Made by a program: the position numbers and the translations under genes
The notes under the pieces: generated by a model
Told to the model about the DNA's origin: nothing
The model's database searches: none
The model's input: the letters and a program-made list of their open reading frames with translations, nothing else
Part shown: positions 3,779-21,894 of the stretch, piece by piece
Position numbering within the stretch: the first letter of the stretch is position 1
How the letters are laid out: each line of letters begins with the position of its first letter
Source of the DNA: an uncultured Mollicutes bacterium
GTDB taxonomy: Bacteria > Bacillota_I > Bacilli_A > Acholeplasmatales > Anaeroplasmataceae
DNA: 35,814 nucleotides
Assembly (NCBI GenBank): GCA_947174785.1
Contig: CAMWKG010000018.1
Span: 1-35,814 of the forward strand
Direction of reading: 5' to 3'

Positions 3779-3853
3779 TGGCAGGACTAACAAGATTCGA
3801 ACTTGTGCATGAGGGAGTCAAAGTCCCTTGCCTTACCGCTTGGCTATAGTCCT
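3779..3853 (-). tRNA. tRNA-Gln (anticodon UUG)
   Basis: A complete cloverleaf with encoded CCA. The acceptor stem is AGGACTA/TAGTCCT, the D arm GCC..GGC, the anticodon stem AGGGA/TCCCT with loop CTTTGAC (anticodon TTG, reading CAA and probably CAG), the T arm ACAAG-TTCGAAT-CTTGT, and the discriminator base is G before CCA. It sits alone between fprA and its own terminator. Confidence 0.95.
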
Positions 3854-3929: not shown

Positions 3930-5063
3930 TTAAATACTTTTTAGTTTAGAAGCTAAATTTTTAATCTGCATTTTACTAGATTCATCCAGACTAGATTTAA
4001 CTGTAACTGTTTCCTCTAATATCGTTATATTTTTAGAATTTACAAAGTATTGTTCAATATATTTTTTAGCAGTAGGAGACCATGATCCATTTTCAATGAT
4101 TCCCACAATTCTATTTTGATAACTACGTTCTACTAAGCCATGTAAAAAAGCTTCTACAGGTGGAAATACACCATTATTATACGTTGGAGAGGCAATGACT
4201 AGCTTTGAATATTGGAAAGCTTTACTGATAGCTTCTGCCATATCACACCTTGCCAAGTCAAAGATTTCAACTTTACAATCTGTTAATTTAGTAGCTAATT
4301 CCTCTACTGCATGTTTGGTATTTCCGTAGATAGATGCATAGGCAATGCATACTCCTTCTTCTTCAGCTTGATAGCTAGACCAAATATTATATAAATTTAA
4401 GTAATAATTCAAATTTTCAGTTAGAACAGGTCCATGCAAAGGATAGATAGTATTTATCTCTATACCTGCAACCTTTTTAAATAAGTTTTGTACAGGAAGC
4501 CCATATTTCCCAACAATACCTATATAGTATCTTCTAGCCTCTTCCTTCCAATCCTCTTCTACATCTAAAGCGCCAAATTTTCCAAAGGCATCTGCAGAAA
4601 ACAAGGATTTTGTTATAGTATCATAAGCTAGCATTACCTCTGGCCAATGAATCATAGGAGCAAACACAAATTTTAAATTGTGAGCTCCCAACTCTAAAAC
4701 ATCTCCCTCTTTTACTATCATTTTATTATTGATTTTTAAACCTGGGAAAAATTGTTCAATCATAGGAAAAGTTTTATTATTTCCTACTACCGTAATGTCA
4801 GGATATACTTCTAACAGGTTTTGAATACTTGCTGAATGATCTGGCTCCATATGTAAAACAATTAAATAGTCAGGAAGTCTTTCTTCCAAAGCATTATGAA
4901 TGTTTCTTAACCATTCCTTCGTGAAATGGATATCTACAGTGTCCATAATTGCTATTTTTTTATCATAAATTACATATGAGTTATAGCTCATGCCATTTTT
5001 TACTCGATATTGCCCTTCAAACAAATCAACCTGATGATCATTTACACCAACATATTTAATCAT
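3930..5063 (-). CDS. fprA: Class A flavodiiron protein
   Basis: A soluble flavodiiron protein that reduces O2 to water and/or NO to N2O, used by anaerobes for oxidative or nitrosative defence. Residues 1 to about 230 are the metallo-beta-lactamase-like diiron domain. All expected ligands are visible: His71, Glu73 and Asp75 in HMEPDH, His139, Asp158 and His210, spaced as in the family. The C-terminal flavodoxin domain begins around residue 238 with ASIYGNTKHA, the FMN phosphate loop. No rubredoxin or flavin reductase domain is fused, so an external electron donor is needed. At 377 aa it is slightly shorter than the usual ~400. The start is backed by GAGGG six bases upstream. It follows nrnA by 13 bases and is probably co-transcribed. 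Confidence 0.95.
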   Translation of the reverse strand: MIKYVGVNDHQVDLFEGQYRVKNGMSYNSYVIYDKKIAIMDTVDIHFTKEWLRNIHNALEERLPDYLIVLHMEPDHSASIQNLLEVYPDITVVGNNKTFPMIEQFFPGLKINNKMIVKEGDVLELGAHNLKFVFAPMIHWPEVMLAYDTITKSLFSADAFGKFGALDVEEDWKEEARRYYIGIVGKYGLPVQNLFKKVAGIEINTIYPLHGPVLTENLNYYLNLYNIWSSYQAEEEGVCIAYASIYGNTKHAVEELATKLTDCKVEIFDLARCDMAEAISKAFQYSKLVIASPTYNNGVFPPVEAFLHGLVERSYQNRIVGIIENGSWSPTAKKYIEQYFVNSKNITILEETVTVKSSLDESSKMQIKNLASKLKSI

Positions 5064-5076
5064 ATAAAACCCTCTA

Positions 5077-6021
5077 TTATTTTGCCTTATATTTTTTCAC
5101 CAATTCGTCTGCTTTATTCACAAAGCCATCTAATTCATTCCAGTCTAGTAAAGTGGCTCCACTTGCCTTCGCATGACCACCGCCACGATATTGTTCTGCA
5201 AGTAAATTAATGACTGGTCCACGTGAACGTAAACGCACACGAATTTCCTCTTTAGAATACTCTAAAAATAATGCCCATACTGGACAACCCTCAATCGTAG
5301 AAATTGTAGATACCTGTGCAGCTGCATCTTCATAGCTAACACCAAATGTCTCTACATCCTTCATAGAAAGTGTTGCATAAGCAAAACCGTGTTCTGTCAT
5401 CTTAAAATTAGATAAGATATGTCCCTTTAATTTTAAAGATGCTAGGCTTTCTACTGAAAGATGATTATCAATATAACCCAAATCTACACCAGTCTCTACT
5501 AAGGTTGCTGCCACCTGGAATGTTCTAGAGGTAACAGAATCAAATTTAAATCTTCCTGTATCTGTAGAAATACCAACATATAATGCTTGAGCAGCTTCTC
5601 TTGGTAATTCCCATTCATTTCTAAACATCAAATATAATTCTGTAATGATTTGAGAACATGCTGGTGCTGTAACATCTACATATTGATAATCCCCATAATC
5701 ATCTACAGGAATGTGATGATCAATTTTAATATATTCCTTAGCTAAATCTACTCTTGGATCTGATAAACGATCTTTTGTTGCACAATCCACACAAATAGAT
5801 AGTGCATCTTTAAATAAGGATTCATCTACAAGTGTAGGTCTTCCAATGAATCCAACAAAGTCACTTGTTTCTCCTGTAACATAAACATTTTTATTCGGAT
5901 AATTTTCTTTAATCAAATAATATAAACCATATTGGCTACCAATACAATCCCCATCAGGACGGATATGCCCATGAATAATGATTGTATCATATTTTTCAAT
6001 ATATTCCTTTATTACTTCCAT
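5077..6021 (-). CDS. nrnA: DHH/DHHA1 phosphoesterase (NrnA-like)
   Basis: A cytoplasmic bifunctional oligoribonuclease / pAp phosphatase-type enzyme that degrades nanoRNA to mononucleotides; some relatives also cleave pApA. The DHH domain shows motif I HGHIRPDGDCIGS (about 17-29), motif II CVDCA, motif III IDHHIPVDD and motif IV STDTGRFKFD; the C-terminal DHHA1 domain carries RGGGHAKASGA. I choose the ATG at 6019-6021 (MEVIKEYIEKYD), preceded by AGAAAGGAA; a longer reading from 6081 would extend into the promoter region. The length, 314 aa, is typical. It is the first gene of nrnA-fprA. Exact substrate preference cannot be told from sequence. Confidence 0.92.
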   Translation of the reverse strand: MEVIKEYIEKYDTIIIHGHIRPDGDCIGSQYGLYYLIKENYPNKNVYVTGETSDFVGFIGRPTLVDESLFKDALSICVDCATKDRLSDPRVDLAKEYIKIDHHIPVDDYGDYQYVDVTAPACSQIITELYLMFRNEWELPREAAQALYVGISTDTGRFKFDSVTSRTFQVAATLVETGVDLGYIDNHLSVESLASLKLKGHILSNFKMTEHGFAYATLSMKDVETFGVSYEDAAAQVSTISTIEGCPVWALFLEYSKEEIRVRLRSRGPVINLLAEQYRGGGHAKASGATLLDWNELDGFVNKADELVKKYKAK

Positions 6022-6052
6022 AGTACAATTCCTTTCTTCATATCTATTTTTT

Positions 6053-6061
6053 ATTATACCA
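6053..6061 (-). promoter_or_regulatory. nrnA promoter, extended -10
   Basis: TGGTATAAT on the minus strand is an extended -10 element with a perfect TATAAT, about 30 bases before the chosen nrnA start. The -35 region is poor. Confidence 0.5.
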
Positions 6062-6104
6062 CGAGATATAGAAAAAAGCACTAAATTTGTTAAGTGGATT
6101 TACG

Positions 6105-6145
6105 AAAAAGAAAAAAGAAGTTATGCAAAATTCATAACTTCTTTT
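6105..6145 (-). terminator. Terminator after the ComEC-like gene
   Basis: A perfect stem AAGAAGTTATG/CATAACTTCTT (6133-6143 with 6115-6125) with a 7-nt loop, followed by TTCTTTTT on the minus strand. It ends the endonuclease I / ComEC-like operon. Confidence 0.85.
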
Positions 6146-6186
6146 CAAGGATTAAATAGAATATATTAGGTTCTAAAAGAAATTTC

Positions 6187-7722
6187 TCATTTTCCATCAG
6201 AAGGCCATATACGCATTTTTCTTTCTACTCCATCTAAAGTAATAGAAGAATTAAACCATGCAGTGTCTTTTAGTATTGTATCATTGTTAGTACAGGTTGT
6301 AATGACATTCCCCGTACTATCTAATGTAACTACAATCGTACCATTCATAGATTCAAACCCATTTACCTTTGGATATTCATTCCCATTCTTATTTTTAGCT
6401 ATTTCATATTTTGCTAAAGTTGTTACATACACACGATTTGTATATTTGGCAACTCTATTTATAAAATCCTGTGTTGGAAACATATTATCTACATTATCTG
6501 TATATTCACTTGATCCAGCACAACAGCACACACAAACAACCTCTGGTGTTATTTTAGATAATAGAGCTTCATTAGAGGAGGTTTTAGATCCATGATGTCC
6601 TCCCTTAAATACTTTACAATGAGGAAGATCATTCTTTTCTACTAAAGATTCTTCTCCCTCTTTTTCTAAATCCCCTGTAAATAAGAAATGATTATTACCA
6701 TAGTTCAACATCATACAAACAGAATAATTATTTTCGTCTGAAGATTTCTCATAATAATATTTTTGATTTAAAATCTCAAAATTAATAGTGTCAGTTAAAT
6801 TAAATCTAGAAGCTGCACCGTTTGTGCCTTCCATACAATCCTTTGCAGTATAATGCTTAGCTCCTAATGTAACCTCGTTATCTCGTTTAGATTCATAATT
6901 TTTAGAAATTTGGCTTGAAGTGTTTTTAAATGCATAATCAATAATAACCTCACATTCATACAAATCAAATATACCTGGATTAGAATTTGTTCCAACAAAT
7001 CCAGAAATATGATCCTCATGAGCATGTGTTGCAATAACATATTCTAATTTTCCATCTGTACAATAATCCTTAATATAATTATGAATGGTTGTAGAACTAG
7101 AAGCTCGAGAACCTGCATCAATTAAAATATCAATATCTCCAGCCTTAATATATACACTATCACCAGCATAATAATTTCCAAGTTCTAAGAAATGAATGGA
7201 TAATTCATCAGTTTCTATAACTGTAGATTTTATTTCTTCCCACTTGGCATAAAGCTTTGTATCCTTAGAAATAGGATCCCCTGGTTTAGCAGCTGTCTTA
7301 AAATTTTCATCTAAATACCAACCCTTAAATTCCCAACCTTCTACATTTTCTAATATTGGAAGGGGATCAGGTAAAGTATTTACTTCTTTTATTTCTGTTG
7401 GTGCAACACCATGTCCATTATCTTCAAATTCAATGGTGTAGACCTCTTCTTTAGGCAATTGAATTTTAATTTTTCCTGTGGCAAATAAAAATAGCACTAC
7501 TGCAAGAACAATCAATAAAATAATTGCTAATATAATCCATAACTTCTTTTTAGATTTACTACCTAAAGAATCTTCTACCCGAAAAGATGTATTCTCATCC
7601 TTGCTCTTTTTGGTGGCATATGCTATTGCCTCTACCTTAGACTCAAAAGATTTGCTTGCTCTTTTGTTTCCTTCGGCAATAACTATCCATTTGTTTTGCT
7701 TATTCTTTTTTACAACATACAT
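6187..7722 (-). CDS. Membrane-anchored ComEC-like metallo-beta-lactamase
   Basis: A 511-residue multidomain protein. Residues 1-54 resemble the DUF2188 fold (MYVVKKNKQNKWIVI...EAIAYA), followed by a basic stretch and one transmembrane helix at about 61-82. Next come a Listeria-Bacteroides (InlB B-type) repeat at about 95-161 ending in GWEFKGWYLDEN..LYAKW, and a metallo-beta-lactamase domain from about 174. The latter has the metal-binding HAHEDH at 233-238, FTGDLEKEGE and GGHHGSKTSS, as in the C-terminal domain of the competence protein ComEC. The DNA channel of ComEC is absent. The expected topology is N-domain inside and hydrolase outside. The start follows AGGAGTG, 13 bases after the endonuclease I stop. 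Phosphodiester or nucleic-acid hydrolysis is likely from family and context; the substrate is unknown. Confidence 0.85.
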   Translation of the reverse strand: MYVVKKNKQNKWIVIAEGNKRASKSFESKVEAIAYATKKSKDENTSFRVEDSLGSKSKKKLWIILAIILLIVLAVVLFLFATGKIKIQLPKEEVYTIEFEDNGHGVAPTEIKEVNTLPDPLPILENVEGWEFKGWYLDENFKTAAKPGDPISKDTKLYAKWEEIKSTVIETDELSIHFLELGNYYAGDSVYIKAGDIDILIDAGSRASSSTTIHNYIKDYCTDGKLEYVIATHAHEDHISGFVGTNSNPGIFDLYECEVIIDYAFKNTSSQISKNYESKRDNEVTLGAKHYTAKDCMEGTNGAASRFNLTDTINFEILNQKYYYEKSSDENNYSVCMMLNYGNNHFLFTGDLEKEGEESLVEKNDLPHCKVFKGGHHGSKTSSNEALLSKITPEVVCVCCCAGSSEYTDNVDNMFPTQDFINRVAKYTNRVYVTTLAKYEIAKNKNGNEYPKVNGFESMNGTIVVTLDSTGNVITTCTNNDTILKDTAWFNSSITLDGVERKMRIWPSDGK

Positions 7723-7735
7723 GCGTTATACACTC

Positions 7736-8734
7736 CTAGGCTTGTGGATATAAATAATTTACCCATTCAGGATAATCAACAAAAGGATTTCTATTTCCTT
7801 GGATAGAATATACCTTTTCGTTTCTTGTTTTTTCTTCCTCACTAACAGGGTCTAATATATTCCATTCAAGAAGCACAGAAAGTATTCCTAATTGACCTGT
7901 CTTATTTGATGAAGAGGATGTAGCAGTTTCACTTAATTCTAAATCTAATTCGTTTGGATCATCATATCGTACGACCAAATAAAACATAGCTCTTGCTAAA
8001 TCTCCTTTAACTTCATCTCTAGGCTCAAAGAATGTATTATCCCATTTATTGCCATACTCATCATGATTTCCATTTTGAACATTATTAAAATCTTTATTTC
8101 CGCGAGTAGCATTTATATTCTTTTCAGAGGCAAACAAATGATGTATATCTGTGTAAGCTGCATAATCTTTAGAACTAAATCCATGACTGTTTGGCCAAGC
8201 ATGCTCCCGATTCCAAATGTTATTCCCAGCAGTTCCCTTATCTTGGTTAGCGATAGGAATAGATCTTCCTGTATAAATACATAATACATTCTCGCTATTC
8301 TTAGGGTCTTTATCTATCTGCTTTAATGCATCCCAAACCTCTGCATAAGAAAGCTTCTTACTATGTGTATCTTTTAATAATTTATGTAAAGAGTTTTTAA
8401 AAGAATTGTCTAAATGCCCATTCATAGGTTCATAGTAGCCTGTCAATGTATTTTTATCTTTAGACCATTTTGCAACTAATTTTACATCACTTGTAATTTC
8501 TTTTGTAAAATCAAATTCCTTATCATTCCAAAACCATCCTTCAAATACATAACCTTTTCTAGTAGGATCTTCAGGCTTTGTTGCAAAATCACCACTCAAA
8601 ACATTCTGTATATCAATAGATGATCCCCCTGCAGAATCAAAGCGTATAGTATATTCTATTTTAGAATTGCCTTTGCAAGATGCTAAACTAAAGGATAAAA
8701 ATATTAAACACAAAAACGATAATAATTTTTTCAT
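7736..8734 (-). CDS. Secreted endonuclease I lipoprotein
   Basis: A 332-residue surface lipoprotein. The signal peptide ends in the lipobox LASC, so Cys20 is the predicted lipidation site. Residues about 27-91 form an InlB B-type repeat (YTIRFDSAGG ... GYVFEGWFWND ... KLVAKW). From about 97 there is an endonuclease I (EndA/NucM-type) domain with WNREHAWPNSHG at 174-185, containing the His-metal active site (His178), and TDIHHLFASEKNINATRGN at 195-213. Such enzymes are sequence-nonspecific nucleases for DNA and sometimes RNA. GGAGG lies five bases before the ATG, with an extended -10 upstream. It is the first gene of a two-gene operon with the ComEC-like hydrolase, and both carry the same repeat type. 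Confidence 0.93.
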   Translation of the reverse strand: MKKLLSFLCLIFLSFSLASCKGNSKIEYTIRFDSAGGSSIDIQNVLSGDFATKPEDPTRKGYVFEGWFWNDKEFDFTKEITSDVKLVAKWSKDKNTLTGYYEPMNGHLDNSFKNSLHKLLKDTHSKKLSYAEVWDALKQIDKDPKNSENVLCIYTGRSIPIANQDKGTAGNNIWNREHAWPNSHGFSSKDYAAYTDIHHLFASEKNINATRGNKDFNNVQNGNHDEYGNKWDNTFFEPRDEVKGDLARAMFYLVVRYDDPNELDLELSETATSSSSNKTGQLGILSVLLEWNILDPVSEEEKTRNEKVYSIQGNRNPFVDYPEWVNYLYPQA

Positions 8735-8760
8735 AACTGCCTCCGTTCTTTTATAAAACG

Positions 8761-8769
8761 ATTATAACA
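8761..8769 (-). promoter_or_regulatory. Promoter of the endonuclease I operon, extended -10
   Basis: TGTTATAAT on the minus strand (perfect TATAAT with the TGn extension), about 27 bases upstream of the start codon. No good -35 is visible because the preceding terminator's T run occupies that position. Confidence 0.5.
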
Positions 8770-8773
8770 TATT

Positions 8774-8816
8774 TTTGAAAAAAAAGAAAAGAGATAAAGC
8801 ATTAAGCCTTATCTCT
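8774..8816 (-). terminator. Terminator of the importer-thermonuclease operon
   Basis: On the minus strand AGAGATAAGGC pairs with GCTTTATCTCT (one G-U pair) around a 5-nt loop, then TTTTCTTTTTTTT. It separates the Ig-like lipoprotein gene from the endonuclease I promoter. Confidence 0.85.
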
Positions 8817-8834
8817 AATTCATATTTTATCAAA

Positions 8835-10451
8835 TTATGCTACTTGAGAAAGTACGAAATCAACTTGAACAATCCAAAGCTGATGGCTTGATTCAGTTGC
8901 AACATTCTTTATAGTAACAGAATTTCCGTTTACTGTGTAAACTCCATTTTCACCAGCAGTTAAGATGTTTGATGCTGTTGTGTATACTTGTAAAGTACCA
9001 CTATTCTTAGTATCTGTTGAAGTAGATAGAGTTACAGTTATAGAATCAATTCTATAGCCTTCAATTACTGTAAATGTTAAAGAGTTTCCTTCGCCTTCAG
9101 TATTGTTATATAAACGAATTGTACCATCTTTATTTAAGCCTGGTTGATTAGTATTTTTTCCTGCTGTACATCCTGTAAAAGTTACATCAAAAACATAATC
9201 ATTTAAGCCTAATGCTGTAACTGGATCATCTACTTTATCAATATTTGTTGTTGCAGCCTCAGAATGCTTTGCAGTTGCAGATTTTAGAGGCTCTGCTGGA
9301 GCTACTGGTTTTGGTTTTTCAGGAGTTTCCTGAGTAGGTGCCTTACCTTTTTCACCATAAGTGAATGCTAAGCTATATAAATCAACTTTATAAGTAGATG
9401 AGTTATCAAAATATACATTTGTAGCGTCGCTTAATGTATAAGTATAAGATGTACCACTAGCACCCTTGCCAACAGCAGGCTTGATTGCTGTTCCTGTAGC
9501 ATCTTTTCCTTGATATGTCTTCATATTGTCATATGTTCCATAAACATCTGAAATTAATGAATAGATTACATATGCATCGCCCTCAACTGTAAGGCTTACA
9601 TGAGAACTCTTGTTAATACCGATTTCTTTATACTTAGAATCATCAACATAACCTGTCCATTCAACAACTACAACTGTATCTTTTCCTAAAGAAATGCTGT
9701 ATTTGCCATCAGCAGTTATTGCATCATAAGGAATAGTTACCTTGCCATCCTTAACTGTACATTTAGAAGTGATATCAGTTGGACCATTTACTGTAATTAC
9801 AACAGTGATGTCCTTTGTTAAGCTTCCAGATTTTGCAGTTACTTTTAATTCAGCTTTTTCTTCTGCACCAGTAGTTGGATCAATAGTTAATTTATCCCCG
9901 TCTACTTTTACAGATGTATAAGTTCCTAATGTATAAGTTAATGCAATTTCATCGCTATACTCAGTAGACTTGCTAGGTAAAGTAATTTCAACTGGGCTTG
10001 TTACTTTATCTTTATTATAAGAGTTAGCAATACCTATTGCCTTAACAGCTGCTTGAGCTGCTGCATCAAATGCAATTGCTTCAACAGTTGTTTTATAACT
10101 AGCTGATGCTTTTCCACCATCAGCAGATACTGTTGCAGTAAAAGTTACTTCTTTATTTGCTGCTTCATCACCAAAAGGTCTCTTTACATCTGCTGTATAT
10201 TTAGAAGCGTCTAAATCTACGAAATCCAAAACAGATGTATCACTTGAAGTCCAAGTAACATCATATTGATTTGAATTATGAAGAACTTTCTTAGGAACAG
10301 TAAAGTCTGCACTTACTTTTCCTCCATCTTGTGTTACTAAAACCTTATCTAATACTTCTTTTGCTGTGCCATTATTAGCACAAGAAGCTGCTGTTGTTAA
10401 ACCTAATGTAGCTACTAGACCACACAAGGCAAATTTAGTTATCTTTTTCAT
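8835..10451 (-). CDS. Ig-like domain surface lipoprotein, function unknown
   Basis: A 538-residue lipoprotein (signal peptide with lipobox TAASC, Cys24). The N-terminal half contains two repeats resembling 'atrophied bacterial Ig' modules, each with a pattern of V..P.......VTWTSSD..VLDF then EVTFTATVS..; the first is about residues 30-130 and the second about 130-230. The region to about 370 looks like a beta-rich surface module, followed by a Pro/Lys linker (about 372-390). The C-terminal ~140 residues (DGTIRLYNNTEG ... LTFTVIEGYRIDSITVTLS) resemble beta-sandwich modules that I associate with secreted nucleases. No catalytic motif is seen. It lies 25 bases after the thermonuclease gene, before a terminator. 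It may bind nucleic acid or polysaccharide; this is inference. Confidence 0.75.
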   Translation of the reverse strand: MKKITKFALCGLVATLGLTTAASCANNGTAKEVLDKVLVTQDGGKVSADFTVPKKVLHNSNQYDVTWTSSDTSVLDFVDLDASKYTADVKRPFGDEAANKEVTFTATVSADGGKASASYKTTVEAIAFDAAAQAAVKAIGIANSYNKDKVTSPVEITLPSKSTEYSDEIALTYTLGTYTSVKVDGDKLTIDPTTGAEEKAELKVTAKSGSLTKDITVVITVNGPTDITSKCTVKDGKVTIPYDAITADGKYSISLGKDTVVVVEWTGYVDDSKYKEIGINKSSHVSLTVEGDAYVIYSLISDVYGTYDNMKTYQGKDATGTAIKPAVGKGASGTSYTYTLSDATNVYFDNSSTYKVDLYSLAFTYGEKGKAPTQETPEKPKPVAPAEPLKSATAKHSEAATTNIDKVDDPVTALGLNDYVFDVTFTGCTAGKNTNQPGLNKDGTIRLYNNTEGEGNSLTFTVIEGYRIDSITVTLSTSTDTKNSGTLQVYTTASNILTAGENGVYTVNGNSVTIKNVATESSHQLWIVQVDFVLSQVA

Positions 10452-10476
10452 TTAAGCTTTCCTTTCCTCTTGTTTG

Positions 10477-11772
10477 TTACTCTATAAAAGTAACATCATT
10501 AATAGAAACAATTTTAATTTGTTTTGTGTTATTATAAGTTTCAATTAAACCTACTACTGTAATCGTCTTATCCAAGAAATAATCTTCTGTAACAATATCA
10601 TAGTTTTCTAATCTTAATATAACTGTACGAAGAGTAACTGTCTTTCCATCTGGAGTAACACCAGTAATTGTCATAGCTCCTGCGCTACTACCAGAAGTTG
10701 TAGTGTAAACTTTGGTAACTTTAACTTTTTCAAGTTTTACTAATAATCTTTCAGTGTCATCAGAAGCATTTAATAATTGCTCTCCAGTAATGGTTGTTGT
10801 AATGATTTCATAATTCTTTTCTAATAATTGTATATTTTTTAAGGTTTGAACACCAATATCTTGCATATTAGAAATTTGAACTTGATTATTATATTCTTGC
10901 ACATTACCATAGATAGAAACACGATTTCCTGGTTCCAATTTAGCTGTATTTAAATTGTATCCCTTATATAACATTAGAGAATAAACTTTATTATCTTCTG
11001 CATCATAGTCTTGTACATAAACATAAAGTCCTTCTACTTTCGTTACAGTGCAATCAAATTTAACAGCTACACCACCTTCAATAAGTTCCTTTTGGTTTTC
11101 AATAATGTATTTTATAGTTGTTTCTTGAGCCTTTCCATAATAATAGTTAGGATCTTTTTCTTTACCTTTACTAAAAACCTTATGTCCTTCAATAACTGCT
11201 TGACTATTAGCCGCTTCAAATTGTGAAGAGTATAGGACAATTGTTGAATATTTTCCATAGGACAATCCTTCTTGAACTAATTCAAGATTTAATAATCTGA
11301 AGGCTGCTCCTGCTTCTGGTTGATACCAAACATAAGTCAGATATCTGTTTCCAGTTGAATCAACTTGTGCAGGACCTCCATCTGTTTGAACTACAATAGC
11401 ATTTGCTGTTAAAAGTTTGCTAGCAGTAAATTTTGAAGCTGTTTTTCCCCATTCTTCTACTTGTCCAGTAGATTCAGGTGTATCTACTCCTAAGAAACGT
11501 GCTGTAAATTCTTGATCATTTGCTATAAATACAGCCGTATCTCCATCTACGCAACGTACAAGAGTAGCGATTGCTATTCCATCTTGTCCAAAAAAGCTAT
11601 GAGCAGCAGTTACATCTACACTCAATTTTGTTTGTGCAACATAGTCAATAGATTCTGTTGGGGTTGGAGTAGGAGTAGGAGTTGGTTCAGGATTTTCCTC
11701 TTTACAAGATGCAAAAATTCCTAAACACAATACAAAACACAAAACCAATAATATTTTGCGTATATTTTTCAT
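10477..11772 (-). CDS. Thermonuclease (SNase-like) lipoprotein with OB-fold tail
   Basis: A 431-residue lipoprotein with lipobox FASC (Cys23) and a Pro-Thr repeat linker (about 30-39). The staphylococcal-nuclease domain at about 65-205 keeps the catalytic set: Asp78 in VDGDT, Arg92, Asp97 and Glu100 in ARFLGVDTPE, and Arg143 in GNRYL. This predicts Ca-dependent cleavage of DNA and RNA outside the cell. Residues about 230-310 form an OB-fold of the kind seen in YhcR-type nucleases (VKFDCTVTKVEGLYVYVQD...NRVSIYGNVQEYNNQVQISN), and the last ~110 residues look like a second such module (TVVGLIETYNNTKQIKI). It begins 22 bases after the binding-protein stop and is evidently transcribed with the ABC importer. 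Confidence 0.92.
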   Translation of the reverse strand: MKNIRKILLVLCFVLCLGIFASCKEENPEPTPTPTPTPTESIDYVAQTKLSVDVTAAHSFFGQDGIAIATLVRCVDGDTAVFIANDQEFTARFLGVDTPESTGQVEEWGKTASKFTASKLLTANAIVVQTDGGPAQVDSTGNRYLTYVWYQPEAGAAFRLLNLELVQEGLSYGKYSTIVLYSSQFEAANSQAVIEGHKVFSKGKEKDPNYYYGKAQETTIKYIIENQKELIEGGVAVKFDCTVTKVEGLYVYVQDYDAEDNKVYSLMLYKGYNLNTAKLEPGNRVSIYGNVQEYNNQVQISNMQDIGVQTLKNIQLLEKNYEIITTTITGEQLLNASDDTERLLVKLEKVKVTKVYTTTSGSSAGAMTITGVTPDGKTVTLRTVILRLENYDIVTEDYFLDKTITVVGLIETYNNTKQIKIVSINDVTFIE

Positions 11773-11794
11773 TTAAATCAACTCTTTTTTTATT

Positions 11795-13225
11795 TTAGTC
11801 TTCGCACTCGCGAATTGCATCCTTGAATGCTTTATCAATAGTAGCTGCATTTGTAACAGCAGCAATGAATAATGAACCTACTTGATCACGTGCTTTAGAA
11901 GATCCATTAAATGCTGGAGAAGTATAGAAGTTATCAACAAATTCAGCTGACATCTTTGCAGTTAAAGCTGTTAAACCGTCTTTTGACTTTCCATCTCCAG
12001 AGTTTAACCACTCTTGGTAAGTCATACCTTTAGCAGGTAAGTTTCCTTTTGTATAAGTAGAATTTAATACTGGGTTATAACCACTTGCATTAGAGAATGC
12101 AGCTTGGAAATCACTTGTTAATAAGAAATCCTTAATGAAAATCCAGCTTGCTAAAACTCTTTGAGGATTATCTTTGTTGAATAAACATAAGCTTGGTCCT
12201 TGAGAAATAACCTTTAAGTCTTTATCCTTGTCCCATTTTGGAACTGCAGCTACACCTACTTCAAATGCACCACTAGCTGGGTATTGGTGAGCAGCTCCAC
12301 CTGTTGAACCAATTGACATAAAGCTATACTTGTCAATTTTTTCTACATCAGATTCTTTTAATTTAGCTGGATCATATGCAGTAAATAAAGATGAAGTATA
12401 AGTAGTTAAAATTGTTTGAGTTGTATAATTTCCAGCATCAAACCACTCTTTGAACTTTTCAATATAGCTTCTATTTTCTTTATTATCAAATAAATAATGA
12501 TTGCCTGTAGCAGAAGTATATTTAGATCCTGTTTGTTCACATAAAGTGATAAATAAGTTTGCTTCACTATCGATTCCTAATGGAATAACCTTAGGATATT
12601 TAGTTGAACCATCATCATTTTTAGCAAGTCTAATTGCTTCACATAATGACATCATCTCATCCCATGTTGTTGGTATAGGCCAATTATTTTCATCAAATAC
12701 AGTCTTGTTATAGTATAAAACCTCTGTAGATTTTGAGAAAGGAAGTGTATACATAAGATCATCACCGAATTGTCTTCCTTCTGCATAATAACCAGGAATA
12801 AAGTCATCTAATTGTTCTTTTGTAAATCCATAAGTAGGGTCGCTAATTAGGTTATCTAATTGAACTACTGCTCTTGCTCTATTATAAAGAGCAACATGGT
12901 CTGGATAACAATATGCAATGTCTGGCTCCAATCCTTGAGGGATTTCTGTAGAAATTTGGTTTCTTACAGCATCATAATTACCAATTTGCTGTGCATTTAC
13001 TGTGAAGTTTGGATACTTCTCTTCAAATGCATCAATTGCTGTTTGTAGGATATCCTGTAAATTGGTTCCCATTGTGTGATAGAATTCGATTTCGATTTTT
13101 TGTGTTTCATCGAGACCTTCCTCTGGTACTACATAGTTTGCTTCACGTTTGCCATTTGTACAACTTGTAACAGCTAAAGCTAAACCTGCAGTTAAACCAG
13201 CTAATAAAAACTTTCTTGCTTTCAT
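11795..13225 (-). CDS. CUT1-family solute-binding lipoprotein
   Basis: A 476-residue extracellular binding protein of family 1, lipid-anchored at Cys22 (lipobox VTSC). Features typical of the UgpB/MalE branch include IEFYHTMG at the start of the mature domain, PFSKSTEVLYYNKTVFDE around residue 165, and ASGYNPV near residue 395. It captures the ligand for the two permeases encoded upstream. A clear AAAGGAG precedes the ATG. The 60-base gap from the preceding permease gene is the largest within the operon. The ligand cannot be deduced: glycerol-3-phosphate- or sugar-like is the default for the family, but the operon partner is a nuclease, so nucleosides or phosphorylated products should be considered. 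Confidence 0.9.
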   Translation of the reverse strand: MKARKFLLAGLTAGLALAVTSCTNGKREANYVVPEEGLDETQKIEIEFYHTMGTNLQDILQTAIDAFEEKYPNFTVNAQQIGNYDAVRNQISTEIPQGLEPDIAYCYPDHVALYNRARAVVQLDNLISDPTYGFTKEQLDDFIPGYYAEGRQFGDDLMYTLPFSKSTEVLYYNKTVFDENNWPIPTTWDEMMSLCEAIRLAKNDDGSTKYPKVIPLGIDSEANLFITLCEQTGSKYTSATGNHYLFDNKENRSYIEKFKEWFDAGNYTTQTILTTYTSSLFTAYDPAKLKESDVEKIDKYSFMSIGSTGGAAHQYPASGAFEVGVAAVPKWDKDKDLKVISQGPSLCLFNKDNPQRVLASWIFIKDFLLTSDFQAAFSNASGYNPVLNSTYTKGNLPAKGMTYQEWLNSGDGKSKDGLTALTAKMSAEFVDNFYTSPAFNGSSKARDQVGSLFIAAVTNAATIDKAFKDAIRECED

Positions 13226-13285
13226 TTGTTTTTTTCTCCTTTGTTTTTTTGTTTTTAAAGCTTGAAATTTATATTAAAGGTTTTT

Positions 13286-14188
13286 TTAACCCTTAATACC
13301 ACTCTTAGATACACCCTTCATAATATATTTTCTGAAGAATATAAAGATAATAATCAATGGCAAGGACACCATAACAACACCCGCCATTTTCATAGGGAAG
13401 TGTGTCATATTTGTTTGCTCATCAACAAAACTATTTGTCAACCAGTTAGAAATCAACTGGAAGTTTTTATCCTTGTTAACTAATCTTGGCCAAATGTATG
13501 AATTCCATGAACCCATAACTTTAAGAATACCAATAGAAGTTATTGTTGGACTTGCTAAAGGAATCATAACCTTCATCAAGTATTTCATATCACTTGTTCC
13601 ATCAACCTTTGCAGCATAATACAAAGAATCTGGAATTTGCATAAATGCATTTCTTAACAAATATACATAAAATATTGAAACCAAGAATGGCACAATTAAT
13701 ACCGTGTATGAATTTGTCCATCCTAATGATGCTACAGTCGCAAAGTTTGAAATAGTAAACAATTCTCCTGGAACCATCATTGTAGCTAATAAAATTGTAA
13801 ATACTAAATTCTTACCCTTAAATTCCAATCTTGCAAACGCAAAGGCTGCAAAAATGATAACCACCATAGAGAGTGCTGTAGAAACAATTGCTATTAGAAC
13901 TGTATTTAACATATCTCTAGCAAAATAATTTACCTGTGCAGCATTCACATAGTTTTCAAATACAAAATTTCTAGGAAAATAAGTTGGAACTAATAATAGG
14001 TATTCATCCATTGTTTTAAAGGATGTATTTAACATCCAATAAAATGGGAATAGTGTAGTTATTGCAACAATAACCAAGAATATATAAATGAATACCTTTA
14101 AAATGATTCTAATAATATTTTGACGTTTAATTTCGGCTTGTACTTTTTCAACAGAATCAAATACAGGTGCTTGTAAATTGTTTTCCAT
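13286..14188 (-). CDS. CUT1 ABC importer permease, MalG/UgpE type
   Basis: A 300-residue inner-membrane permease with six predicted membrane segments, the first at about 27-50. The cytoplasmic EAA loop that docks the ATPase is visible as YAAKVDGTSDMKYLMKVMIP near residue 190. It ends in a short basic tail (KGVSKSGIKG) typical of the MalG side. It starts 12 bases after the other permease gene and is preceded by AGGAGGAAGA. With the partner permease it forms the transmembrane channel of the importer. Confidence 0.92.
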   Translation of the reverse strand: MENNLQAPVFDSVEKVQAEIKRQNIIRIILKVFIYIFLVIVAITTLFPFYWMLNTSFKTMDEYLLLVPTYFPRNFVFENYVNAAQVNYFARDMLNTVLIAIVSTALSMVVIIFAAFAFARLEFKGKNLVFTILLATMMVPGELFTISNFATVASLGWTNSYTVLIVPFLVSIFYVYLLRNAFMQIPDSLYYAAKVDGTSDMKYLMKVMIPLASPTITSIGILKVMGSWNSYIWPRLVNKDKNFQLISNWLTNSFVDEQTNMTHFPMKMAGVVMVSLPLIIIFIFFRKYIMKGVSKSGIKG

Positions 14189-14200
14189 ATCTTCTTCCTC

Positions 14201-15142
14201 CTAAAAATGTACTTTTCTTTTATTTACTTGGAATTGAACTATTGTTAGTAACAATATAATCACAAATAAAACCAACGCCATTGCTGAAGCACGACCATAG
14301 TTCGTATCTTCTATAAATTCATAAACTCTTGCAACAACAGTATTCATTCTTCCTTGTGCTCCAATAGGTCCCATTTGTTTTTCACCAAATACACCTACTA
14401 CAGAAGAATACTCTTTAAACGCTCCAATAAAGCCTGTAACAAATAAATAAGAAATCATTGGAGAAAGTAGTGGTACTGTTATTTTTGTTAACACTCTGTG
14501 TCTTGGAGTACCATCAATCTTTGCTGCATCATAATATTGCTTATTCACAGATTGTAATGCACCAGACAAAATTAAAATTTTAAATGGCAATGCACTCCAT
14601 ACAATATATACTACCATAACTGTAACGTTTGCTGCATAAGTTGAACCTGGACCCATCCAGTTTACTGCAGGAATTCCAAACCATCCTAAGAAAGTGTTTA
14701 TAATTCCTTCTGCGCCAGAAGATCCTTTAGATATAGATTGGAACATCAATGCAAATACTGATCCAATAGCCAATGCATTTGTTACATAAGGCAAAAAGTA
14801 AATAGTTTGAAATGCCTTTTGTAGCGGCTTAATACTATTTAAAGCAACTGCTATTAATAACGCAATGATAATAGATAGAGGAACTGTAAATACAACTAAA
14901 ATCGCTGTGTTTCCTAAAGCCTGAAAAAACTTTATAGAAGAAGATGACATATTAAACAGCTTTTTATAGTTTTCAATTCCTATACTAAAATTAACATGTC
15001 CAGAAGCTGCATCCATTCCGTTATAATCATTTAAAAAAGAATAAATGATTGTTGATATCATTGGATAGAATGTAAAGACAGCCATTAAAACCAAACATGG
15101 TGCTAGAAAGGCCCATGCCTTTTTGGTGTTTAAACCTTCCAT
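14201..15142 (-). CDS. CUT1 ABC importer permease, MalF/UgpA type
   Basis: A 313-residue permease, six predicted membrane segments, of the MalF/UgpA branch. The first membrane segment is at about 10-33 (FLAPCLVLMAVFTFYPM). The EAA loop is YYDAAKIDGTPRHRVLTKIT near residue 205. It begins 12 bases after the ATPase gene, with GAGGTGG just before the ATG. It pairs with the downstream MalG-type permease. Confidence 0.92.
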   Translation of the reverse strand: MEGLNTKKAWAFLAPCLVLMAVFTFYPMISTIIYSFLNDYNGMDAASGHVNFSIGIENYKKLFNMSSSSIKFFQALGNTAILVVFTVPLSIIIALLIAVALNSIKPLQKAFQTIYFLPYVTNALAIGSVFALMFQSISKGSSGAEGIINTFLGWFGIPAVNWMGPGSTYAANVTVMVVYIVWSALPFKILILSGALQSVNKQYYDAAKIDGTPRHRVLTKITVPLLSPMISYLFVTGFIGAFKEYSSVVGVFGEKQMGPIGAQGRMNTVVARVYEFIEDTNYGRASAMALVLFVIILLLTIVQFQVNKRKVHF

Positions 15143-15154
15143 TTAAACCACCTC

Positions 15155-16297
15155 TTATTCTGCTGTTGAGGCTTCAACAACCTCTTCTGTTTGTTCTTCG
15201 TTTTGTGTTTGTTTTATAAAATGATCTTCTTTACCTAATCGGATTTCAGTTTCACGATTAAATAAGAATACCTTGTTAGGTTTTAAGTTAAATTTAACAA
15301 TTCCAGTAGCAGGTATCTTTGTATCAACTTCTACAATTGCACGAAGCGTTGGCTTTTCGCAATTTTCGTTCTTTGCAACAATAGAGATATCTCTACCCAT
15401 TACTTCTAATTGTTGAACCTGACAAGATAATACACCCTTGTCTGCAACAATAAAGCCCTCTGGACGAATACCAACATAGATTTCTTGATCATCATATTCA
15501 GTATCCATAATTGCTTCATTTCCTATATAAACCTTGTGATTCTTAATTTCACCTAAGAATGTATTGATAGGAGGTGTTCCTAAGAATTTTGCAACAAATA
15601 GATTCAATGGATCATCATATACTTTTTGTGGTTCATCTACTTGTTGAACAACACCCTCTTTCATAACAACGATAAAGTCAGAAATACTCATAGCTTCTTC
15701 CTGGTCGTGTGTTACGAAAATTGTTGTAACTCCGGTTTCTCTTTGAATTCTTTTAATTTCTTCTCTTGTTTGTAATCTTAGACGCGCATCTAGGTTAGAT
15801 AGTGGTTCATCTAGCAATAATACGTTTGGATTCTTTACAAGAGCACGTGCAATTGCAACACGTTGTTGTTGACCACCAGATAACTCAGCTGGTTTTCTGT
15901 CTAACAACTGGTCAATTTGAACTAACTTAGCTACTTCAACTGCTCGGTCATTTGCTGCCTTTTTACTAACCTTTTGGTTTGTTAGTGGGAATGTGATGTT
16001 TTTCAAAACTGTCATATGTGGATATAACGCATAGTTTTGGAATACCAATCCAATTCCTCTTTTTTCGGCTGCAAGATGTGTAACCTCTGCATCACCGAAG
16101 AAAATTTGTCCAGAAGTAGGAACTTGTAAACCACTAATCATAAACAAAGTAGTAGATTTTCCACAGCCAGATGGTCCTAATAAACCAACCAATTTGCCGT
16201 CAGGAATCTCAATGTCTAGATTATCAACTGCTCTAACTTCTGATTGTGTCTTTTTGTTTGTAAAGACCTTAGTTAAATTCTTAAGTACAATCTTCAT
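15155..16297 (-). CDS. CUT1 ABC importer ATPase, MsmK/UgpC type
   Basis: A 380-residue ATPase that powers the importer from the cytoplasm. It has Walker A GPSGCGKST (about 41-49), signature LSGGQQQRVAIARAL, Walker B LLLDEPLSNLD and the switch His in THDQEEAM. After about residue 240 comes the C-terminal regulatory (TOBE/MOP-like) domain of MalK/UgpC/MsmK proteins (IYVGIRPEGF). Such ATPases are often shared among several sugar importers, but here the gene is operonic with one permease pair. It ends in a Glu/Thr-rich tail. It is the first gene of a six-gene unit through the Ig-like lipoprotein, with AAGGGG before its start. Confidence 0.95.
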   Translation of the reverse strand: MKIVLKNLTKVFTNKKTQSEVRAVDNLDIEIPDGKLVGLLGPSGCGKSTTLFMISGLQVPTSGQIFFGDAEVTHLAAEKRGIGLVFQNYALYPHMTVLKNITFPLTNQKVSKKAANDRAVEVAKLVQIDQLLDRKPAELSGGQQQRVAIARALVKNPNVLLLDEPLSNLDARLRLQTREEIKRIQRETGVTTIFVTHDQEEAMSISDFIVVMKEGVVQQVDEPQKVYDDPLNLFVAKFLGTPPINTFLGEIKNHKVYIGNEAIMDTEYDDQEIYVGIRPEGFIVADKGVLSCQVQQLEVMGRDISIVAKNENCEKPTLRAIVEVDTKIPATGIVKFNLKPNKVFLFNRETEIRLGKEDHFIKQTQNEEQTEEVVEASTAE

Positions 16298-16401
16298 TTT
16301 TAAACCCCTTATTTATTTTTTCTTAAAAAGAATTTTATCGGTGTGAACCATACATTAAAACACACAAAGGAAACACAAAACTAAAAATTCTCTCTATTCT
16401 A

Positions 16402-16410
16402 ATTGTATCA
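16402..16410 (-). promoter_or_regulatory. Possible promoter of the ABC importer-thermonuclease operon
   Basis: TGATACAAT on the minus strand could be an extended -10 about 105 bases upstream of the ATPase start, leaving a long AT-rich leader. No convincing -35. I see nothing else in the 16320-16500 gap. Confidence 0.35.
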
Positions 16411-16502
16411 TAGGAAGGCAAAAAAGAAAATAGAAAAAAGTATTTTTACCAAGGTTTTTTTATAAAATTTTAGAATAAAAAAACAAATTGTAATTTTTCG
16501 GC

Positions 16503-16532
16503 GAAAAAAAAGCCCTTTCTTAAGAAAGAGCC
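16503..16532 (-). terminator. Terminator of asnS
   Basis: On the minus strand GCTCTTTC/GAAAGGGC (one G-U pair) with a TTAA loop followed by TTTTTTTT. Confidence 0.9.
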
Positions 16533-16544
16533 TTTAAAATAAAA

Positions 16545-17940: not shown

Positions 17941-18180
17941 AAATATAAAAATCCCTAGCCTAAGCTAAGGACGAAATTTCCGTGGTACCACCTTAATTCT
18001 ATAGATATAAATATCTATAGCACTCTTGTTCCTTAACGCGGAAAGACGTATGGTTCTACTCAAATTTCTTCCATCTCTCAAAGGTGTTTCGTTCTATTTT
18101 ATGTTATCTATTTTCACCTAACATAGACTCTCTAAAAACAATGCCAAATAGAACAATCCTTATCACAGATTTTATTATAT
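17941..18180 (-). promoter_or_regulatory. T-box riboswitch of asnS
   Basis: The leader senses uncharged tRNA and controls readthrough into asnS. The T-box sequence AAGGTGGTACCACGG is at 17980-17994 on the minus strand. It is followed by the terminator stem TCCTTAGC/GCTAGGGA (17964-17971 with 17952-17959, TTAG loop) and a T run at 17947-17951. An AAC triplet in AGAACGAAACACC (around 18085) is a plausible Asn specifier codon in stem I, agreeing with the gene; I did not fold stem I in full. Confidence 0.93.
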
Positions 18181-20960: not shown

Positions 20961-21303
20961 TTTTTTCTCCTTTCACAAGTAATTTTTGCTTTCGAAATAG
21001 GTGTTGTAATTCTCTTTCAATACCTTGAAAATCTAATTCTACAACCTTTCCTCTAGCAACAATAAAAACGTCCACATTAGGAATTACATTTAAAGTTCTA
21101 ATTACTGCTCTAATTTGACGTTTTAAATGATTTCTCACTACTGCATTACCTATTTTTTTTCCGACACTCATCGCATAACGAAAATGGTTGGTTTCGTGTT
21201 GTTCTTTCATGTATATTGTAAAGTAAGGATTGCTCGAAAAACGATGATTTTTTAGTATTTCTTCTATTTCCTTACTCTTCTTTACGCGATATTGTTTTTT
21301 CAT
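20941..21303 (-). CDS. rnpA: Ribonuclease P protein component
   Basis: A 120-residue basic protein that assists the RNase P RNA in 5' maturation of tRNAs. The family's RNR-type motif is clear in GKKIGNAVVRNHLKRQIR (about 48-65), and the start MKKQYRVKKSKEIEEIL is typical. It lies between rpmH and yidC, overlapping yidC by 20 bases. A hairpin between rpmH and this gene (21333-21378) may reduce its expression relative to L34. The ribosome binding site, AGGG, is weak. Confidence 0.97.
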   Translation of the reverse strand: MKKQYRVKKSKEIEEILKNHRFSSNPYFTIYMKEQHETNHFRYAMSVGKKIGNAVVRNHLKRQIRAVIRTLNVIPNVDVFIVARGKVVELDFQGIERELQHLFRKQKLLVKGEKNDSIFK

Positions 21304-21332
21304 AGATTATACCCTGCAGATTCTTATAATAA

Positions 21333-21378
21333 ACAAAAAAGTACAACCAAAAATCACTATATATTGTTCTGGTTGTAC
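21333..21378 (-). terminator. Hairpin terminator/attenuator between rpmH and rnpA
   Basis: A 9-bp perfect stem GTACAACCA/TGGTTGTAC with a ~20-nt loop followed by TTTTTTG on the minus strand, 27 bases after the rpmH stop. Since rnpA follows without a clear promoter of its own, partial readthrough is likely. Confidence 0.7.
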
Positions 21379-21404
21379 AAGTTTTGTCAATATTTATTAT
21401 AAAA

Positions 21405-21539
21405 TTATACAGTTAATTGTTTTCTACCTTTTTTACGTCTACGAGCTAAAACTTTACGACCATTCTTAGTAGCCATTCTAGCACGGAAACCATGAGTAAC
21501 TTTTCTTTTACGTCTATTAGGTTGATAAGTTCTTTTCAT
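21405..21539 (-). CDS. rpmH: 50S ribosomal protein L34
   Basis: A 44-residue very basic protein starting [20 protein letters not shown] and continuing [15 protein letters not shown] to the ending GRKQLTV, the near-universal L34 sequence. It is a component of the large ribosomal subunit. It is the first gene left of the origin, with a strong promoter (21579-21607) and heading rpmH-rnpA-yidC-khpB. Confidence 0.98.
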
Positions 21540-21578
21540 AATTTCATACCTACCTTTCTTACGAAACCACGCTATAAT

Positions 21579-21607
21579 ATTCTAACAAAAAAGAACATGT
21601 ATGTCAA
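21579..21607 (-). promoter_or_regulatory. rpmH promoter
   Basis: Consensus TTGACA, 17 nt, TAGAAT with a TGT extension on the minus strand, about 40 bases upstream of the L34 start codon. Confidence 0.8.
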
Positions 21608-21844
21608 ATATTTTTTTATAATAATTAGAACAATTTTTTTAGAAGAAAATATTTTGATAAAAATGTTAAAAATTTTTTATTAAATGTGGATAACTTATAG
21701 ACAAATTTATCCACTTGTATATTTGTAGAAAAATTAAAAAAATGGCTAAAAATAGGGCTTTTTTCTTGATTTTATCCACATTTTTATGAAAAATTAGACA
21801 AAAACTCTCCAAAGTTATCCACATTTTTTGTGGAAAAATAAATC
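21608..21844. other. oriC: Origin of replication, upstream DnaA-box field (oriC part 1)
   Basis: This gap between rpmH and dnaA holds three perfect DnaA boxes, TTATCCACA at 21772-21780 and 21815-21823 (plus) and 21685-21693 (minus). There are also two one-mismatch boxes at 21707-21715 (TTATCCACT, plus) and 21829-21837 (TTTTCCACA, minus). The flank at 21608-21684 is almost pure A/T. Gene strand orientation flips here, consistent with the bidirectional origin. With the dnaA-dnaN gap it makes a bipartite Bacillus-like origin. Confidence 0.93.
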
Positions 21845-21872
21845 TTGTCAAATCAAAAAATTATGCTATCAT
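21845..21872 (+). promoter_or_regulatory. dnaA promoter
   Basis: TTGTCA, 16 nt, TATCAT immediately after the DnaA-box field, starting transcription near 21879. Its closeness to the box at 21829-21837 would allow autoregulation by DnaA, as known in other bacteria. Confidence 0.65.
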
Positions 21873-21894
21873 ATTTAAGAATGTGGGTGTTATT

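Follow-up and report, generated by a model that had tools for sequence, protein, structure and literature searches.

The window analyzed here is the whole 35,814-nucleotide stretch of contig CAMWKG010000018.1 (assembly GCA_947174785.1) from an uncultured, wall-less gut bacterium of the Mollicutes, whose genome was Anaeroplasmataceae-like by its closest named relatives. In this window, genes for surface nucleases were found to lie directly behind a complete ATP-binding cassette (ABC) importer, and the locus as a whole was interpreted as a probable nucleic-acid scavenging system. The relevant genes and signals were as follows.

16508 to 16533, minus strand: terminator (hairpin with T-run) that follows asnS and closely precedes the importer operon; fold -13.4 kcal/mol, z -2.1; sequence conserved in relatives.
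16385 to 16445, minus strand: probable promoter of the importer–SNase operon, proposed from a conserved TATGATACAATTA block in a leader alignment with 6 relatives.
15155 to 16297, minus strand: ABC importer ATPase of UgpC/MalK type (PF00005; best NCBIfam match UgpC PRK11650, 350 bits, below the cut-off of 432).
14201 to 15142, minus strand: ABC permease 1, UgpA-like (PF00528; NCBIfam UgpA-like).
13286 to 14188, minus strand: ABC permease 2, UgpE-like (PF00528; NCBIfam UgpE-like).
11795 to 13225, minus strand: substrate-binding lipoprotein (SBP_bac_8; lipobox ..AVTSC), a predicted binder of dinucleotides or short phosphodiester-linked nucleotides.
10477 to 11772, minus strand: SNase lipoprotein with a C-terminal OB-fold-like region (PF00565, 41.3 bits, cut-off 21; lipobox ..GIFASC).
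8835 to 10451, minus strand: Ig-like or beta-sandwich lipoprotein (lipobox ..TTAASC; aBig_2 match sub-threshold, 22.1 against a cut-off of 27).
8790 to 8816, minus strand: intrinsic terminator ending the importer–SNase operon (z -4.3), kept in relatives with a TATAAT-like box downstream.
7736 to 8734, minus strand: endonuclease I lipoprotein of the EndA/NucM family (PF04231, 154 bits, cut-off 25; lipobox ..SLASC), with an N-terminal Listeria-Bacteroides repeat (PF09479).
6187 to 7722, minus strand: membrane-anchored hydrolase of metallo-beta-lactamase (MBL) fold, comprising DUF2188 (PF09954), a helix, Flg_new (PF09479) and the MBL domain (Lactamase_B, PF00753, 52.4, cut-off 22.7).
6112 to 6146, minus strand: intrinsic terminator after the endA–MBL unit (z -4.5).
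5077 to 6021, minus strand: NrnA-like DHH/DHHA1 enzyme (PF01368 and PF02272), predicted cytoplasmic, in a separate transcription unit; its start, ATG at 6021, was read from the sequence.

The sequence-only reading had described the four genes from SNase to the MBL hydrolase as one island of surface proteins for extracellular nucleic-acid breakdown. All four open reading frames were found on the minus strand where it had placed them, and its three lipoboxes (SNase, Ig-like protein and EndA) and one membrane anchor (the single helix of the MBL protein) were recovered. The genes of the island are thus real, but its boundary was drawn too short, the importer was missed, and two transcription units are involved. 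The SNase and Ig-like lipoprotein genes form the end of an operon at 8835 to 16297 on the minus strand, which opens with a complete CUT1-type ABC importer. The order is ATPase, permease, permease, binding protein, SNase and Ig-like lipoprotein, all co-directional, and the four importer genes (11795 to 16297) precede SNase on that strand with gaps of 12–60 nt. A single operon of the four island genes was ruled out by the conserved terminator at 8816 to 8790, with endA and the MBL gene forming a second unit. Given this terminator and that at 6146 to 6112, nrnA constitutes a third. In the leader before the ATPase gene, no riboswitch was detected at the Rfam gathering threshold, and only chance-level matches occurred.

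The coupling of nuclease and importer was evaluated by scanning 84,980 species genomes; of 426 loci of the SNase family, the best 80 were kept, chosen by SNase similarity only. They came from Anaeroplasma, other Bacilli, Clostridia, Lachnospiraceae and Oscillospiraceae, mostly as gut or rumen metagenome-assembled genomes. The binding-protein gene was directly upstream of SNase in all 72 loci with enough flank, and the ATPase and permease genes were upstream in 63 of 63 testable loci. Since that choice took no account of neighboring genes, these conserved neighbors represent an independent result. Moreover, SNase was coupled more tightly to the importer than to EndA or the MBL protein. Both the binding protein and SNase were present in 42 of 60 relative genomes, neither in 10 and one in 8 (Fisher p 5.6e-6, unadjusted for phylogeny; the relatives are not independent, so the certainty is overstated). 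At about 48 non-Anaeroplasma loci, an RDD-family membrane protein gene (L093:4754-5518) stood directly before the ATPase gene.

The SNase itself aligned with staphylococcal nuclease, and its catalytic residues R92, E100 and R143 were intact and conserved in 17 of 17 sequences. For its downstream neighbor, the lipoprotein and its lipobox were confirmed, but the Ig-like label depends on the sub-threshold aBig_2 match. No other part of the cassette varied as much as this position, which was occupied in relatives by OB-fold or beta-sandwich lipoproteins of about 500–1900 amino acids, such as the OB-fold at L052:7148-9226.

The binding protein of the importer was compared with solved structures. 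The structure model was of high confidence (mean pLDDT 91). By sequence, the nearest PDB entry was a dinucleotide-binding ABC protein of the 7C0F type, which we take to come from Thermus (phmmer E 7.4e-14; the family-profile search agreed). By fold, the same protein and its mutants were nearest (Z 36.9, root-mean-square deviation 3.1, 380 residues). This protein was crystallized with UpG, and 7C0F is cited as FEBS J 288:4614 in PMC12718374.

The binding-site residues of UgpB, including the glycerol-site Glu66 and Trp169/Trp172, were taken from PMC12718374. The phosphate-site residues correspond to Y84, S166, S307 and Y383 in the window protein and were invariant in 35 sequences except for Y84 (31 Tyr, 4 Trp). 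The glycerol-site residues Glu66, Trp169 and Trp172 are replaced by P108, A222 and F225, and by P, A/D/S and F in the family, with Glu or Trp in none of the 35 sequences. Eight sites were mutated in the Thermus protein (Y56, F79, N81, S127, Y224, T240, Y246 and Q274; ligand contact is deduced from the mutation), and these correspond to Y84, Y107, D109, S166, Y276, S307, H313 and Q342, respectively. By profile alignment, Y56, S127, Y224 and Q274 are identical (Y224 with Y276 in the HMMER alignment only), and F79 to Y107, N81 to D109 and T240 to S307 are conservative replacements. Y107, D109 and Q342 were each present in 35 of 35 family members, and the H313 position, Y246 in Thermus, was His or Tyr in 32. 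At the positions of N81, Q274 and Y246, UgpB has V, G and N. Because the phosphate-site and most of the putative dinucleotide-site residues are kept and the UgpB glycerol-site residues are lost, the ligand predicted from sequence is a phosphodiester-linked nucleotide, with a dinucleotide as the simplest case.

Related binding proteins were also encountered. In six loci (L086, L098, L104, L105, L114 and L138), the cassette contained a tandem pair of binding-protein genes, each showing the pocket pattern. On contig C5 of the host genome, the paralogues encoded by two tandem genes (L164, G000:C5, 7106-9836) were without this pattern, and no permease genes were recognized beside them. L165 (G000:C32, 3914-10056) is an importer locus without an ATPase, in which two permease genes are accompanied by genes for a binding protein and for OB-fold and CotH-kinase lipoproteins. 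This paralogous importer may share the ATPase of the window and take related cargo.

In the second unit, the NREH motif of EndA was kept in 10 of 10 sequences. The MBL protein has no lipobox and a single membrane helix (residues 57-81 in the structure model), preceded by KKK and DUF2188; therefore, the hydrolase should face outward. DUF2188 (7570-7720 in the window) is on the predicted cytoplasmic side. The metal motifs were kept, with HxHxDH in 8 of 9 sequences, N331 in 9 of 9, and D351 and HHGS in 8 to 9 of 9. The best fold match was the MBL domain of ComEC (9ic4, Z 27.2), followed by the phosphorylcholine esterase Pce (Z 24), and a Pce-like esterase is an alternative identity suggested by the structure comparison. 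The ComEC MBL domain is a proven Mn-dependent nuclease, in which the Asp of motif II replaces His, together with the Asn of motif III (PMC8579336). The window protein resembles this domain in fold, motif III Asn, HHGS and outward orientation, but lacks a channel and keeps His in motif II (HxHxDH). As motif II is not Asp-substituted, its metal and activity may differ from those of ComEC. TIGR00361 (ComEC) covered the protein only at model positions 450-659, and a complete ComEC is encoded elsewhere in the host genome (G000:C52). Accordingly, the separate full ComEC, the missing channel and the different motif II ruled out that the MBL protein is the ComEC of this genome, and the earlier label "ComEC-like" is fair by fold but not as an identity.

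The MBL gene was missing from most loci carrying the importer–SNase cassette. In the relative L052 (4005-6983), a 992-residue lipoprotein combines a beta-sandwich region, an Endonuclease I domain and an MBL domain. Its beta-sandwich region is common to the Ig-like protein of the window, and the fusion indicates a functional link between EndA and the MBL protein. This fusion makes plausible the earlier idea of endonucleolytic cutting followed by hydrolysis at the membrane, with the MBL protein as a putative nuclease; the main partner, the importer, had been overlooked.

Enzymes of nucleotide metabolism recurred around the cassette. The window NrnA matched the NrnA model NF053633 with 265 bits, below the cut-off of 350. 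Outside Anaeroplasmataceae-type genomes, NrnA homologues lay within about 10 kb in 29 of 66 loci and SurE was found in 26, compared with 1 for mnmE and 0 for purA, yidC, dnaA, jag and asnS as housekeeping control genes in the same loci. The layouts of NrnA differed: the gene lay upstream in some loci and downstream in others, in the latter case on the same or on the opposite strand. In four Clostridial loci (L093, L106, L126 and L129), SurE, NrnA, Udp, DeoB, DeoD and DeoC stood in series; in L093, the families from SurE to Deo were assigned, with DeoC recognized by eye from a truncated end only. Upstream in many Clostridial loci was a fusion of a deoxyribonucleotidase-like domain and guanylate kinase (L093:3625-4737), the nucleotidase half of which was read by eye. 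The recurrent neighbors NrnA and SurE are without signal peptides, and both act on phosphorylated substrates. Coincidence as the explanation of the nrnA adjacency was rejected by the neighbor control. The earlier remark that nrnA beside the cluster may be coincidental is thus probably wrong, since nucleotide enzymes recur beside the cassette in relatives and NrnA does so in several arrangements, although it is a separate unit in the window.

As for the host, family searches did not find purH and pyrB in its 96%-complete genome, and the same searches were positive in nearly all control genomes. The host thus appears, from its gene content, to lack de novo synthesis of purines and pyrimidines, which would give it a need for scavenging. 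In addition, deoC adjoins deoD and SurE is present.

Regarding the surroundings of the locus, a T-box leader (17964-18175, minus strand, 123.5 bits) precedes asnS and adjoins the importer operon, and a tRNA gene (3782-3853, minus strand) lies between mnmE and an FprA-type flavoprotein gene. The GC skew switches at about 21300-21900, between rnpA and dnaA, marking the likely replication origin. The cassette is about 5–15 kb from it, and in several relatives it occupies the same slot from asnS to nrnA.

Taken together, the original proposal of extracellular nucleic-acid breakdown is strongly supported by the domains and catalytic residues, by the auxotrophy markers of the host and by the conserved context. 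The following route is proposed. With their intact catalytic sites, the surface lipoproteins SNase and EndA would cut extracellular DNA and RNA to very short pieces, probably assisted by the outward-facing MBL hydrolase. The CUT1-family importer, co-operonic with SNase, would capture the products on its lipid-anchored binding protein and bring them into the cell. Because of the binding pocket and the recurrent cytoplasmic partners, the cargo would most likely be dinucleotides or similarly short phosphodiester-linked pieces that are still phosphorylated, rather than free nucleosides. Cytoplasmic NrnA-type phosphoesterases would then split these pieces to mononucleotides, from which SurE, nucleoside phosphorylases, DeoB and DeoC would release the bases and catabolize or salvage the sugar. 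Scavenging of nucleic acids with coupled import is held to be very likely. That nucleases, importer and NrnA-type enzymes together form one scavenging system is probable, and a phosphorylated substrate rather than a nucleoside is likewise favored. Whether a dinucleotide is the main substrate is evenly balanced. A more tentative proposal, falling slightly short of that, is a widespread nucleic-acid utilization system of gut Bacilli and Clostridia, resembling polysaccharide loci, with intact dinucleotide import, cleavage by cytoplasmic NrnA and no external dephosphorylation.

Several observations weigh against this route. The binding protein shares only about 20-22% identity with the Thermus protein, and UgpB-type structures were nearly as close (Z 35.8 and 34.7 against 36.9); as they follow so closely, fold alone does not decide the ligand. 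The paralogous binding protein on contig C32, which is not beside an SNase, keeps most of the pocket pattern, which therefore also occurs outside SNase-linked copies. The endA–MBL unit is transcribed separately and is missing from most Clostridial loci. Across 21 genomes, the association of the cassette with loss of pyrB or purH had the right direction but was not significant (p 0.16 and 0.35). Finally, a lipoprotein 5'-nucleotidase is encoded elsewhere in the host genome, and external nucleoside production is thus possible as a parallel route.

The nucleotidase leads to the most serious alternative, in which phosphate is removed from the nucleotides outside the cell and the importer takes up nucleosides or nucleobases, the cargo that Wasmund et al. 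proposed for the Izemoplasma DNA loci (PMC8289736). This is considered unlikely, as no 5'-nucleotidase lies within the cassette, the signal-peptide-free NrnA and SurE point to phosphorylated substrates in the cytoplasm, and the binding protein of the window is CUT1-type with the phosphate-binding quartet kept, unlike the PnrA-type protein of the proven nucleoside importer of mycoplasmas (PMC12892991). A transporter of glycerol-3-phosphate, glycerophosphodiesters or sugars (UgpABCE or MalEFGK type) that merely stands beside nuclease genes would account for the best NCBIfam labels (UgpA, UgpE and UgpC) and for the closeness of UgpB-type structures. It is nevertheless improbable, because every Ugp match was under its family cut-off, UgpB E66, W169 and W172 are replaced across the family, and binding protein and SNase are paired in nearly all of the loci sampled.

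In pneumococcus, EndA-type nucleases have a role in competence, and the MBL domain of the window protein is closest to that of ComEC. A cluster that feeds transformation, with EndA and the MBL protein belonging to competence-type DNA uptake, is still highly improbable given the single helix without a channel, the real ComEC on another contig and the absence of the MBL gene from most cassette loci. In mycoplasmas, surface nucleases break down neutrophil nets and have a part in virulence (PMC12115388), which would fit nucleases kept mainly for defense or colonization, where they would degrade host DNA nets, the DNA of biofilms or incoming DNA, and only secondarily for nutrition. This is quite improbable here, because the nucleases are tightly coupled to an importer and to genes of nucleotide catabolism and the host is apparently auxotrophic for nucleotides.

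Nucleotides are usually assumed to lose their phosphates before uptake. If the proposed dinucleotide route is true, many gut bacteria could eat DNA and RNA as phosphorylated dimers, NrnA would gain an obvious nutritional role, and gut foraging on DNA and RNA would become testable with defined genes. It would also provide a concrete candidate substrate for the SNase–ABC operons of mycoplasmas. The window system yields a sharp, testable prediction of dinucleotide-type cargo.

Compared with the Thermus protein, the closest solved structure, the window binding protein has most ligand-site positions identical or conservatively replaced, but it differs by the low identity given above and by additional insertions. 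The UgpB-UgpAEC importer is also of the CUT1 family and has the phosphate-binding Tyr/Ser positions in common, but its glycerol-contacting Glu and Trp clamp is lost in the window family, which has the invariant D109, H110 and Q342 instead. In the literature searched, which lacked most subscription journals, no report connecting a nuclease locus with a dinucleotide-binding ABC protein was found.

Mycoplasma SNase–ABC operons include M. agalactiae MAG_5030-5070, M. bovis MBOVPG45_0307-0311 and M. gallisepticum MslA, for which import of nucleotide precursors was proposed (PMC3585158, PMC4045577); in M. bovis, deoC and pdp (0300 and 0301) lie a few genes from the operon (PMC4045577). As in the window, a surface SNase lipoprotein stands directly beside an ABC importer with a lipoprotein binding protein. 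However, the mycoplasma order is binding protein, SNase, ATPase, permease, permease (PMC3585158), compared with ATPase, permease, permease, binding protein, SNase here. The window adds EndA, the MBL protein and NrnA, Clostridia add SurE/deo genes, and the window binding protein has a pocket like that of the dinucleotide protein, with only a weak match to P68-type lipoproteins (NF045826; P80/MslA/P68; E 5e-6, 25 bits, cut-off 200). The DNA-degradation loci of Izemoplasmatales (PMC8289736, PMC8397711) and the Hujiaoplasma locus (PMC10470597), which includes NrnA, likewise group several extracellular nucleases together with ABC transporters, also in wall-less Bacilli, and cultured strains were shown to grow on DNA. 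The Izemoplasmatales loci differ in their lamin-tail nuclease, phosphohydrolases and phosphate transporter, none of which is in the window cluster; no lamin-tail-domain nuclease or phosphate ABC transporter domain was found in the ten window proteins from 3930 to 16297. The Izemoplasma importer was read as a nucleoside/nucleobase carrier (PMC8289736), and dinucleotides were not proposed as cargo in any of the passages considered from these mycoplasma, Izemoplasma and Hujiaoplasma papers. Nuclease–importer systems were known from mycoplasmas and Izemoplasma, and the window locus departs from them in its gene order, its endA–MBL unit, the lack of lamin-tail and phosphate-transport parts and the evidence for a phosphorylated cargo.

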